DNA from: Plicaturopsis crispa FD-325 SS-3
Taxonomy: Eukaryota; Basidiomycota; Agaricomycetes; Amylocorticiales; Amylocorticiaceae
Direction of reading: 5' to 3'
DNA length: 24,848 nt
Assembly (NCBI GenBank): GCA_000827205.1
Contig: KN832562.1
Location: 497,742-522,589 of the forward strand
The position numbers and the translations under genes are program-made. The notes under the pieces were generated by a model that was given only the letters and a program-made list of their open reading frames with translations, ran no database searches and was not told the DNA's origin. Positions 1,103-24,848 of the stretch are shown here, piece by piece (the first letter of the stretch is position 1; each line of letters starts with the position of its first letter).

Positions 1103-1107
1103 GTTTC
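1103..1107. repeat. target-site duplication, left copy (GTTTC)
   Basis: Five bases identical to 1546-1550, exactly flanking the solo LTR. A 5-bp duplication is typical of copia-class integrase and fixes the LTR boundaries. Confidence 0.85.
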
Positions 1108-1175
1108 TGACAGAATATGAGGGGTGCCCGCACACATCCTTTGTCTGTCAGGCCTGCAAAACGTTTTCCACCAGC

Positions 1176-1188
1176 GGGAATTGAACCC
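1176..1188 (-). promoter_or_regulatory. tRNA T-arm / Pol III B-box-like motif in LTR U3
   Basis: On the minus strand it reads GGGTTCAATTCCC, which fits the B-box consensus GGTTCRANYCY. The same 13 bases occur at 24071-24083 at the equivalent place in the other LTR, although flanking U3 sequence differs. No convincing A box or cloverleaf is present, so this is not called a tRNA gene. Confidence 0.5.
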
Positions 1189-1203
1189 AGGACCTCCGGC
1201 AAA

Positions 1204-1227
1204 TATATTCGATTATAATCGAATATA
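1204..1227. repeat. U3 hairpin 1 of the solo LTR
   Basis: Perfect 10-bp arms (1204-1213 and 1218-1227) with a 4-nt loop. It lies just downstream of the B-box-like motif, as does the unrelated-sequence hairpin at 24098-24115 in the other LTR. Confidence 0.7.
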
Positions 1228-1255
1228 AGCGAATATAAGGCCTTATAATGAGGTT

Positions 1256-1291
1256 ATGAATTTCGACACAAGTCAACGCGTCGAAATTCAT
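1256..1291. repeat. U3 hairpin 2 of the solo LTR
   Basis: Perfect 12-bp arms (1256-1267 and 1280-1291) around a 12-nt loop. The other LTR has an 18-bp-arm hairpin (3 mismatches), also with a 12-nt loop, at 24119-24166. The arm sequences are unrelated. Confidence 0.7.
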
Positions 1292-1387
1292 GACGTCATA
1301 GTCTTTGTCAGCATTCATGGACTCTTGCAAACTTTTCTCTTCGTCTCTTTTCCTCAGTCGCTTCGCTATTATTGCAGCACGGCTGAG

Positions 1388-1442
1388 GTATGTTGTTCAT
1401 AGTATTCTCTACACTACATTACATTACTTACCACTGTACTAG
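1388..1442 (+). other. intron-like segment inside the solo LTR
   Basis: It is 55 nt long, starts GTATGT, has CTTAC at 1427-1431 as a branch site about 11 nt before the 3' end, and ends CTAG. These match the introns of the ordinary genes in this window in size and signals. Block A (1356-1387) precedes it and block B (1443-1466) follows. The same A and B lie directly joined at 1481-1536 with exactly this segment missing. Splicing is inferred; no RNA evidence is available here. Confidence 0.75.
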
Positions 1443-1480
1443 ACGCATTTGCTGCGCACTTCATAGGTACAGTTTAATCA

Positions 1481-1536
1481 AGTCGCTTCGCTATTATTGC
1501 AGCACGGCTGAGACGCATTTGCTGCGCACTTCATAG
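1481..1536 (+). repeat. spliced-looking second copy of LTR blocks A and B
   Basis: 1481-1512 repeats 1356-1387 (32/32 identical) and 1513-1536 repeats 1443-1466 (24/24 identical). The two blocks are joined without the intervening 55 nt. A 14-nt spacer (1467-1480) separates the first and second arrays. Confidence 0.9.
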
Positions 1537-1545
1537 ATTCTGTCA

Positions 1546-5700: not shown

Positions 5701-5948
5701 TAGACTCGAGGCAGTCAAAATTTCACAGCCGACACTCGAAGATAATCGTTCGAGTTGGCTGTATAGGGACTGGAGCATAATCCGGCCATTTAGGACGGTC
5801 AAACTTCCGAATACCTTCCGGCCGTCACATGACCAGAATAAAATGGACTTAGAAAAAATCGAGCACTTGTGAAAATTCAAACTCGTTGGATCGTATTTCT
5901 GAAGAGACAGAAAGCTTCGCAATGTGCTCGTTAAGATGCCCCCGAAGT
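5701..5948 (+). repeat. left terminal inverted repeat of the MULE
   Basis: It matches the reverse complement of 7047-7293. The inner part from about 5777 onward is well conserved, including the block GGCCATTTAGGACGGTCAAA and the stretch around ATGACCAGAATAAAATGGAC. The outer 60-70 bp after the first 9 are more diverged. Confidence 0.85.
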
Positions 5949-7046
5949 TGCACATCATGATACCTATAGGTGGTTCAACGGCAACTCAAATGGTATGCAG
6001 TTGAGCAAGGTTACTAGAATTGATATCCGAGTCGACGGATTGTCGCGAGATACACAGATAGAGCCAACCTCAAACTATCCTAGCACTGAACAAGATGTCG
6101 CATGGGAGGTGGGTAACATCGCTATCCGCGAGCGCCCTCCATCGAGGTGCGGCGCGGCCATCCTCAGATCCCTGCTTCGTAACTCGAAGATTGTAGCGTG
6201 GCCCGCGCAATCGAGGTGACTACAGCTAAGGATGTTATCAGTTATGGTTCCACGGACAAGAAACAAGAATTCTTACCTCCTCAGCCAGCAGGGAGCACTG
6301 ATAGATTCAAGTGCAAAGGGGTACTTGTCCGATTCGGATGTCGCCTGTCACACCGACTCGAAGCCATTACCGAGCTGTCTCCATCCCCGCACCAGAGAGC
6401 CCAGAGAGCTTTAATGGTACACCAACACGACGACGCCGTTTTGAGCGCGCGACGAGAACAACATTCTCGGCTTTGCAGGTCAATGGACGACCCTCTTGGT
6501 ACCATGTCAGTGAGTTAAATGCTGACGACGTACCGGTCGAGAAATTCAGTCCCGCAGTGGTCCAGGGATCGGAGCAGGCTATATCACCTCCTCTTTGACG
6601 GGGAAGCATGCTCTACCGCATTCACGGCTTGGGTGCTCCAATCCTGCGTGCCTAGCGGCATAGCTCCTGGCATGTTTATTGTAGCCTCTCGAGAACGGTC
6701 AATCCAGGTGGAATACTACACAGTTATAGAACGATGTCAGCGCAATCTGAGTCAGATCGAAGCTCGAGTATGCGCACCGTGCAATTCGAGACGCGACGTG
6801 ACAGAACACCGCCGCCACTCCCAAGCTACCTGCACGGTTGTGGAAACTGCTCAGTGGCGGTAAGCTGGTACAGTCTACAGGATATCCACGAGTTCCAGCT
6901 ACATGCCTAGGAAATGAAAGACCGTAAGACGAGGTTGAGAGATGGACACGCGTCGTGATGTGAGCGCGGGGTTGAAGGAGGAAAATGACCAGGTTGAGTC
7001 GTTGTTTCGACATTACCACGCGTAAAATGTTGCTTCGCGTCTCGAA
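5949..7046. other. MULE interior, no gene recognised
   Basis: Open frames of 60-155 codons occur on both strands, none with known motifs. A captured host-gene fragment (Pack-MULE) is possible but I cannot identify one. Confidence 0.4.
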
Positions 7047-7293
7047 ACTTCGGGGGCGTCTCGACGAATACATTACGAGACTTTCTGTCTCCTCAGAAAT
7101 GCGATACAGCGAGTTTGAATTTTCCAGGGTGCTCGATTTTTTCCAAGTCCATTTTATTCTGGTCATGTGATGGCCGGAAGGTATTCGGAAGTTTGACCGT
7201 CCTAAATGGCCGGATTATGCACCAGTCCCGAATCCGAGCGACAAAACGATTATCTTTTGTGTAGCGTAGTTTTCGGGCACTGGTTCGAGTCTA
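7047..7293 (-). repeat. right terminal inverted repeat of the MULE
   Basis: Inverted partner of 5701-5948 and almost the same length (247 versus 248 bp). Confidence 0.85.
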
Positions 7294-23911: not shown

Positions 23912-24070
23912 CTTTGTGTAGGATTAACCCAGAGACACTGATGCACGGAAAGCCTGAGGACCCAGATATCACAGAGAACGAGTGAACATCATAGTAGAGT
24001 GTCAAAACTGGACGGTGATAGGAGAGCCCGCGCGCATCCTTCACCAAGTGGAGAAACGTTTTCCTGCAGG

Positions 24071-24083
24071 GGGAATTGAACCC
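24071..24083 (-). promoter_or_regulatory. tRNA T-arm / Pol III B-box-like motif in LTR U3
   Basis: Identical 13 bases to 1176-1188 in the solo LTR, in the same relative place. Confidence 0.5.
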
Positions 24084-24097
24084 ACGGACTTTCAGCC

Positions 24098-24115
24098 ACA
24101 AGTCATGTGACTTGT
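24098..24115. repeat. U3 hairpin 1 of the right LTR
   Basis: Eight-bp perfect arms ACAAGTCA/TGACTTGT with a 2-nt loop. Same position as 1204-1227 but unrelated sequence. Confidence 0.65.
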
Positions 24116-24118
24116 AAC

Positions 24119-24166
24119 GACGATGTTGGCACCGAGCTCCCCGGCCCACTCGGTAGCGACATCGTC
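24119..24166. repeat. U3 hairpin 2 of the right LTR
   Basis: Arms of 18 bp (24119-24136 and 24149-24166) with 3 mismatches and a 12-nt loop. Positional counterpart of 1256-1291. Confidence 0.7.
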
Positions 24167-24290
24167 ATAGTTTGCCGTCCCATTCAGGGGCTTATGGACT
24201 TTCTTCCCACGCTTTTTTCTGCACATGTCTGGACGCCTTTCCTTTTCTCTTTTCCTCAGTCGATTCCACTATTCTTACAGTGCGGCTGAG

Positions 24291-24344
24291 GTATGTTGTG
24301 TTACACCCTACTCTACCTTACTTTGATACTCACACATGTACTAG
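24291..24344 (+). other. intron-like segment inside the right 5' LTR
   Basis: It is 54 nt long, starts GTATGT, has CTCAC at 24329-24333 as branch site, and ends CTAG. It lies between block A (24258-24290) and block B (24345-24368). The downstream copy at 24382-24438 joins A to B without it. Confidence 0.75.
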
Positions 24345-24381
24345 ACGCGACCCGCTTCGCACTTATAGGTACATATAATCA

Positions 24382-24438
24382 AGTCGATTCCACTATTCTT
24401 ACAGTGCGGCTGAGACGCGACCCGCTTCGCACTTATAG
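24382..24438 (+). repeat. spliced-looking second copy of LTR blocks A and B
   Basis: 24382-24414 equals 24258-24290 (33/33) and 24415-24438 equals 24345-24368 (24/24). A 13-nt spacer (24369-24381) separates the arrays. Confidence 0.9.
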
Positions 24439-24447
24439 TTTCTGACA

Positions 24448-24460
24448 GGTTATGAGCCCC
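24448..24460 (+). other. primer-binding site for an initiator-tRNA-Met half molecule
   Basis: GGTTATGAGCCCC directly after the LTR, complementary to the anticodon arm of initiator tRNA-Met and identical to the site at 449-461. Confidence 0.82.
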
Positions 24461-24551
24461 GGGGACGCTTAGGGACCCTCGTACACCACAGACTATCCTC
24501 AGTCACTCGACTCACCACCGCGCGTTCGTAGCCTGACCCGCTCAGCGTGCA

Positions 24552-24848
24552 ATGTCCACCTCGGACTCAACTACGTGTCCGGTCCTCCAAGGACCGGAGA
24601 ACTTCCAGATATGGCGACTCCGCATCACCGCAAAGCTGCGGGTGGAGAAGGTCTACGGTGTCGTCAGCGGCGCCGAACTAGCACCCTCTTCAGCCGCACC
24701 TCCACCTGCTGCAGCCGCACCTCCACCTGCCGCTGCGGCACCTCCACCTGCTGCTGCCACTTCCGTCTCCACTCCCGGAATGCCTCATGGCGACACCGAC
24801 TCCAGCATCTCCGCCAAGCTGTCGGCCGCCACCGACTCCTGGGAGATC
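24552..24848 (+). CDS. copia-type gag polyprotein, N-terminal part (partial)
   Basis: Ninety-nine codons are open to the window edge. The start MSTSDSTTCPVLQGPENFQI continues WRLRITAKLRVEKVYGVVSG. This is the L-x-G-x-x-N-F-x-x-W-x-x-x-I/M signature of copia-class Gag. An Ala/Pro spacer of three tandem heptads follows (residues about 47-68), then a second ordered part ISAKLSAATDSWEI. The start lies about 90 nt after the primer site. No breaks are seen. Confidence 0.82.
   Translation, partial: MSTSDSTTCPVLQGPENFQIWRLRITAKLRVEKVYGVVSGAELAPSSAAPPPAAAAPPPAAAAPPPAAATSVSTPGMPHGDTDSSISAKLSAATDSWEI
24691..24753 (+). repeat. 21-bp tandem repeat, three units, inside gag
   Basis: Units at 24691-24711, 24712-24732 and 24733-24753 encode AAPPPAA-like heptads. 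The period is a multiple of three, so unit number can change without breaking the frame. Confidence 0.8.

Follow-up and report, generated by a model that had tools for sequence, protein, structure and literature searches.

A split and a joined copy of the R region inside LTRs of Plicaturopsis crispa: a candidate route for keeping introns through spliced genomic RNA

An element that is copied through RNA should lose its introns at every cycle that passes through a spliced transcript. The classical way to prove that an element passes through RNA is to show that its introns disappear, according to a 2025 review (PMC12786077). In a 24,848-nucleotide stretch of the genome of Plicaturopsis crispa (hereafter the window), a solo long terminal repeat (LTR) holds an intron-like segment together with a second, joined copy of the sequences on either side of it. 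How could an intron stay in such an LTR, and how did the joined copy come to lie beside the split one?

Results

An LTR with an intron-like segment and its joined copy

The LTR at 1108–1545 has perfect 8-bp inverted ends and, internally, the order A1–intron–B1–spacer–A2B2 (Table 1). The first-pass annotation, made from the letters of the window, had called it a solo LTR, had delimited the array and had described a fused unit lacking exactly the intron-like segment. All of this was borne out: GTTTC flanks the LTR on both sides, the array coordinates are exact, A2B2 equals A1 plus B1 letter for letter, and the 55-nt segment is precisely what the fused copy lacks. The CT-rich tract before A1 had been read either as a splice acceptor or as a start of transcription. 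The RNA start is the better fit, because the copied tract begins at the CTC/A base.

Table 1. Features of the two LTRs of the family and of adjoining sequences in the window
Feature	Position	Strand	Remarks
Target-site duplication GTTTC, left copy	1103..1107	+	right copy 1546-1550
Solo LTR, Ty1/copia-like element, termini TGACAGAA...TTCTGTCA	1108..1545	+	close copies L009-L013
CT-rich tract ending CTC, upstream of and adjoining the predicted RNA start	1332..1355	+	tract copied into A2 starts at the next A/G
A1, first exon	1356..1387	+	predicted RNA 5' end at 1356
Intron 1, GTATGT...TACTAG, 55 nt	1388..1442	+	exactly missing from the fused copy
B1, second exon, TAG at end	1443..1466	+
Spacer, 14 nt, begins GTACAG	1467..1480	+	putative intron 2 donor; last base (1480) is the hotspot position
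A2B2, intron-less fused copy	1481..1536	+	identical to A1+B1; candidate landing site of strong-stop DNA
Putative intron 2 (spacer+A2+B2), 70 nt	1467-1536	+
Short U5 ATTCTGTCA	1537..1545	+
Second family LTR, a 5' LTR	24000..24447	+	R region ~77% identical
Second LTR, A1	24258-24290	+
Second LTR, intron 1	24291-24344	+
Second LTR, B1	24345-24368	+
Second LTR, spacer	24369-24381	+
Second LTR, A2	24382-24414	+
Second LTR, B2	24415-24438	+
Second LTR, U5	24439-24447	+
Primer-binding site GGTTATGAGCCCCG	24448..24461	+	complementary to anticodon region of tRNA-Met genes in L070, L071
Start of gag-like reading frame, continuing beyond the window	24552..24848	+	weak DUF4219 match, E 0.076, short of the cut-off

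Inverted-repeat LTR ends, a short target duplication and a tRNA primer site after the 5' LTR identify these sequences as LTR retrotransposons. The primer site lies directly 3' of 5' LTRs and reads GGTTATGAGCCCCG in superfamilies I and II (see below) and GGTTATTGAGCCCCGG in superfamily III; GGTTATGAGCCCCG and the tRNA-Met genes in L070 and L071 match over 14 nt. Target duplications also flank single copies in L009, L018, L023, L041, L047, L049 and L051 and span the LTR pairs L021/L022, L038/L039 and L044/L053; the remaining copies are 5' or 3' LTRs, are truncated or gave no target duplication. Judged by the primer, the LTR ends, the 5-bp duplication and a weak gag hint, the elements appear to be Ty1/copia-like. 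Two other loci with the same primer-site sequence (L063 and L065) contain no direct repeat of at least 10 nt in the 330 nt upstream, and the array is therefore not general to this primer class.

Several further features of the window were recorded. Both LTRs contain a T-arm/B-box-like stretch (1159–1189 and 24054–24084; minus strand, GGTTCAATTCC). Its 31 nt are 90% identical between the two LTRs, although much of U3 has diverged, and it may be a tRNA relic or an antisense motif of Pol III type. Searched for as a tRNA or SINE relic, the part near 1176–1188 gave no tRNA and only weak Rfam matches. The gag-like frame includes 21-nt tandem repeats (24691–24758). An apparent short LTR of ~166 bp (TGTCAGAA...TTCTGACA) lies at ~462–627 on the minus strand and precedes the same primer site (GGTTATGAGCCCCGCGG); inspection by eye showed no A/B array. 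A 184-nt inverted repeat (5766–5949 and 7046–7229; 90% complementary, 1096 nt apart) lies downstream of a transporter-like gene.

The array recurs in three superfamilies

Similarity and pattern searches of the species' own 33.2-Mb genome, whose counts are lower bounds, gave at least 64 places with such an R region, seven of them masked or broken off within the array (L013, L017, the second copy in L020, L042, L050, L078 and L090). Among the findings that the first-pass annotation had named as speaking against it was that most family members lack the second A–B unit or show no exact removal of the GT–AG segment. The genome reads otherwise: 51 of the 57 classifiable LTR copies, the two LTRs of one element being counted separately, keep the full A–intron–B–spacer–AB order. 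Fifty of these were parsed by regular expression and one (L125, with an incomplete A1) was read directly; both window LTRs are included. A single fused AB was found in five copies (L041, L043, L051, L052 and L056), which are spread over four subfamilies, one adjoining a primer site and two having target duplications. The last copy, the decayed LTR L082 (G000:C30:55507), has a single A–intron–B joined to U5 and followed by the primer site. Two fused ABs within 150 nt, as in a triple or an intronless double array, occurred nowhere in the loci scanned (L009–L028, L037–L057 and L072–L104). Recurring at 24000–24447 and in 50 parsed arrays, the array is not a product of chance. The superfamily I donor-to-acceptor pattern has 32 matches genome-wide, compared with 0 for the same pattern run backwards.

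The array is common to three superfamilies with dissimilar A or B. Superfamily I comprises at least eight subfamilies with related B sequences (ACGC...ATAG); superfamilies II and III were read after predictions had been set down from it. In superfamily II, where B differs (TTTGCTATCTTGCATCTAG), eight of ten fetched, previously unread places contain the full array. Of the other two, L078 breaks off within intron 1, and L082 has the single A–intron–B, the form that had been named in advance as contrary (1 of 10). The predicted intron, GTA spacer, exact fused copy and variable base before A2 were all present, whereas U5 measured 40 nt and not the predicted 9 nt; a C before A1 was not countable in these places because the finding pattern demanded it.

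Superfamily III was reached through a U3 similarity search and the motif YTAGGTACAT. Its A ends GCTGAGAC, its intron begins GTGAGT and its B is 11 nt long. Where the first intron of L093 ends, TAG stands twice in a row (TAGTAG); its fused copy marks the second TAG as the junction. The motif as such is not enriched, with 80 places in the genome versus 106 for the reversed control. Already-known arrays account for 14 of the 80, and another 53 that were fetched (14 picked by hand, then 20 and 19, bringing coverage with the known arrays to 67 of 80) comprised 6 arrays and 47 places without one. In one superfamily III copy, L125 (G000:C20:461450-461950, minus strand), similarity starts exactly at the predicted RNA-start A (ATCTT) and the usual TC ahead of that A is absent, as in an inserted RNA-derived copy. 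Its base before A2 is T; the other superfamily III arrays read have C.

Splice signals of two putative introns

Intron 1 is 50–56 nt long in the 47 arrays for which a length was obtained and runs from GTATGT, GTACGT or GTGAGT to TAG or CAG. Its donor, branch-like site, acceptor and length are typical of the host: the neighbouring transporter gene has 17 candidate introns of 51–77 nt, with G at +5 in all 17, picked by eye and confirmed by reading frame for the first eight only. By sequence criteria, intron 1 is a probable spliceosomal intron, and its predicted junction is reported by the fused genomic copy.

The spacer together with A2 and B2 looks like a second intron, usually of the form TAG/GTAC...TAG and 54–70 nt in length. 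This putative intron 2 measures 66–70 nt in superfamily I, 60 nt in II and 54–56 nt in III, with 58 nt in L083 (III) when a duplication is included; the candidate introns of the host gene span 51–77 nt. TAG/GTAC follows B1 in all three superfamilies despite their dissimilar B, the exception being subfamily G44 with TAG/GTATAA. B ends in TAG, and A2 contains an RCTGAG whose A lies 14–25 nt before the end of the second TAG. A GTA downstream of B1 and a B ending in TAG were required by the parsing expressions themselves, and those features rest on direct reading.

The putative donor of intron 2 (GTACAT, GTACAG or GTATAA) has A at +5; G occurs there only in L075 (GTACGT). Compared with host donors it would be weak, which is the main weakness of the two-intron reading. 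Our guess is that a weak donor may be needed to keep A2B2 in the 3' LTR. An acceptor at the A2/B2 junction (CTGAG) was considered in place of intron 2 and rejected, as it would leave B unhomogenised.

A hairpin fold of exon A is possible in 10 of 10 sequences tested. Its z-scores against shuffles are 0.2 to −1.9 in superfamilies I and II; in III, z is ~−4 only with bases upstream of the copied tract and −0.7 from the predicted RNA start. The alignment of A contains no compensatory changes in support of the hairpin, and the structure proposed for exon A as a whole is paired in 72.6% of cells, compared with a mean of 75.7% for shuffles, a shortfall due in part to a misplaced inner helix. A TAR-like role of exon A is only a lead.

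The two copies change together

A1 equals A2 in 46 of 50 arrays (exceptions L012, L025, L040 and L089), and B1 equals B2 in the same number (exceptions L012, L023, L025 and L039), extra letters after B2 in L024 and L083 being ignored. Among ten superfamily I representatives, there are up to 18 base differences in A1B1 (53–57 nt) and up to 20 in the intron. A2B2 is closest to its own A1B1, rather than to any other A2B2, in eight of the ten, and L025 and L040 are ties. Recent changes occur in both copies, as in the first base of A (L015/L016), in B (L014 compared with L015) and in A of L077.

Such identity despite the divergence of the subfamilies argues that A2B2 is rebuilt from A1B1 during replication. 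Homogenisation thus seems to belong to replication, and the L012 and L025 pairs suggest drift after insertion, once replication had stopped. The simplest reading in the first-pass annotation, a one-off placement of a spliced copy next to the intron-containing one, is insufficient: because A2B2 tracks A1B1 from subfamily to subfamily, repeated rewriting is needed.

Exactly at the B2/U5 junction, the end of B is duplicated in L024 (14 nt, in both LTRs) and L083 (4 nt); B1 lacks these duplications. An alternative 3' splice site was rejected as their source, there being no AG at the required places.

A mutational hotspot at the base before A2

Within several subfamilies, no position of the R region varies as much as the one immediately preceding A2. 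There, seven G44 elements read T, T, C, A, C, T, C, five G18 elements C, C, T, C, T and eight G73 elements T, T, A, T, A, T, T, C, and six S1 copies have A with one G. A1 is preceded by C in 28 of 28 arrays. Across eight subfamilies, 10 of 92 changes fall at the base before A2 versus 0.32 expected (Poisson P ~3e-12). The column had been noticed ahead of testing, hence a correction for 291 columns, which gives ~7e-10. This count used a star tree, collapsed known mates of one element and left out superfamily III. Two of the three changes in G73 may be one event, and if only two changes are assigned to G73, P after correction is ~2e-8.

The signal is carried by G44, G18 and G73; S1 contributes one change, and G14, G20, G27 and G37 none. 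Within G44 the hotspot column conflicts with the grouping obtained from other sites (L048, L049). The base agrees between both LTRs of one element in L044/L053, L021/L022 and L074/L075. A hotspot before A2 would be expected because cDNA made from the RNA 5' end would land there, and we take this base to mark where strong-stop DNA, copied as far as the RNA 5' end, was joined by its 3' end. MMLV reverse transcriptases are described as adding untemplated nucleotides at an RNA 5' end (PMC6885630).

A two-intron model and its rivals

The architecture, the concerted copies, the hotspot, the exact boundaries and the counts of forms are all seen in the genome. As their best explanation we favour, with a probability of about 0.6, a leader with two introns combined with landing on A2B2. 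The R region would be stored twice, once split (A1–intron 1–B1) and once joined (A2B2). Transcription would begin at A1, and the 5' leader would lose both intron 1 and intron 2 (spacer, A2 and B2) to give A1B1–U5–primer site. Strong-stop DNA made from this spliced leader would be the complement of AB–U5 and would anneal to the unspliced 3' LTR at A2B2, the sole joined AB there, with synthesis proceeding upstream through the spacer, B1, intron 1, A1 and U3. The daughter LTR would again be A1–intron–B1–spacer–AB–U5, with both introns kept and A2B2 newly written from A1B1. If the strong-stop DNA landed on A1, the rare single-AB LTR would result, and splicing of intron 2 alone would leave the form seen in L082.

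Several points of the first-pass annotation are supported: the intron-like segment, whose splice signals resemble those of the host, the exact fused copy, the upkeep of the array (51 of 57 classifiable copies) and, within its mechanism, the idea that spliced strong-stop DNA has an intron-less place to land. One change to that mechanism is proposed: splicing of intron 1 by itself would add one AB per cycle, and no double-fused array was seen in the loci scanned; removal of a second intron would close the cycle. Since B is homogenised like A, B1 would have to be joined directly to U5. Removal of intron 2 would explain both this homogenisation and the origin of the L082 form.

The RNA start, both splicing events, the landing step and the non-splicing of the 3' LTR are the steps that we infer from these patterns. 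Retention of intron 1 in the 3' LTR and the B2/U5 duplications in L024 and L083 have no explanation within the model and count against it. We see a little better than an even chance that the elements replicate via a spliced genomic RNA, with a self-renewing joined copy that would serve as both the interior of intron 2 and the landing pad and that, rewritten each cycle, would record the RNA start and both junctions.

Splicing of intron 1 only could still maintain the array if each landing added an AB unit and slippage of the reverse transcriptase between repeats removed one. Deletion between direct repeats by reverse transcriptase is well known, and a balance of gain and loss would account for the homogenisation and the single-AB forms; the small B2/U5 duplications in L024 and L083 resemble slippage, and the weak donor of intron 2 also fits. 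We nevertheless consider it unlikely, as it predicts triple and intronless double arrays, of which there are none among the loci scanned, and leaves unexplained why TAG/GTAC and the terminal TAG of B persist in families whose B sequences are unlike. Lower still we place the idea that A2B2 goes back to an ancient reverse-transcribed copy of spliced RNA, retained because RNA structure, promoter or packaging needs its sequence, and homogenised by ordinary recombination or gene conversion between short repeats. The hairpin of A can be folded in each sequence tested, mostly little better than shuffles, and direct repeats are able to convert, but it is implausible that conversion would have made tracts of 25–33 and 11–24 nt identical in almost every array. 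Moreover, the old-looking L012 and L025 have drifted instead of converting, A shows no compensatory changes in its alignment, and nothing in such a history would put a hotspot exactly one base before A2.

That hotspot, along with a standard first strand transfer, would follow if the RNA started at A2, making A2B2 the R region and A1–intron–B1 an untranscribed relic in U3. However, the CT-rich start-like tract precedes A1 and not A2, the splice signals of A1–intron–B1 are maintained in three superfamilies, and a start at A2 offers no route to A1 = A2 and B1 = B2; we regard it as very improbable, the least probable of the accounts weighed here.

Discussion

If the two-intron model is true, the elements would resolve the intron-loss conflict in a new way, by keeping two introns while replicating through spliced genomic RNA, and landing on the joined copy would be a new mode of first strand transfer. 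Were A2B2 rewritten every cycle, genome assemblies would record RNA start sites, splice junctions and untemplated nucleotides. To our knowledge, there is no description of a copia LTR that pairs an internal intron with a joined copy of its flanks. An LTR of this kind was also absent from the matches listed in the open PMC literature, most subscription papers lying outside that scope. The word 'intron' does not appear in the main text of a survey of Copia elements in filamentous ascomycetes (PMC5445492). Neither PMC13148404 nor PMC4668388 proved relevant.

The elements resemble Ty1/copia elements in their short inverted LTR ends, their 5-bp target duplication and a primer site whose complement lies in the anticodon region of tRNA-Met genes. 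Ty1/copia elements of the Drosophila copia type are primed by a half-tRNA of initiator-Met. The order of the repeat letters, A1...B1 A2 B2, is superficially like that of DIRS, Ngaro and VIPER elements, whose split direct repeats span the whole element, with A1 and B2 as the termini and no known target duplication. A tyrosine-recombinase element with split direct repeats (DIRS/Ngaro) was rejected, since A and B lie here inside an LTR flanked by target duplications.

Plant LTR elements are generally intron-less, with Ogre and EVADE as exceptions whose introns yield subgenomic RNAs via alternative splicing, according to the 2025 review (PMC12786077). As described there, Ogre and EVADE offer no parallel to the paired split and joined copies within the LTR of the elements reported here. 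Common to all is that they are LTR retrotransposons bearing introns, which are functional in Ogre and EVADE and putative here.

Some retroviruses have a 5' hairpin or a splice donor in R (HIV TAR, HTLV/BLV), and the R region described here is like theirs in its possible hairpin at the RNA 5' end and in a putative splice donor within R. The genomic RNA of retroviruses is unspliced; in P. crispa, by contrast, the replicating RNA would be the spliced one.
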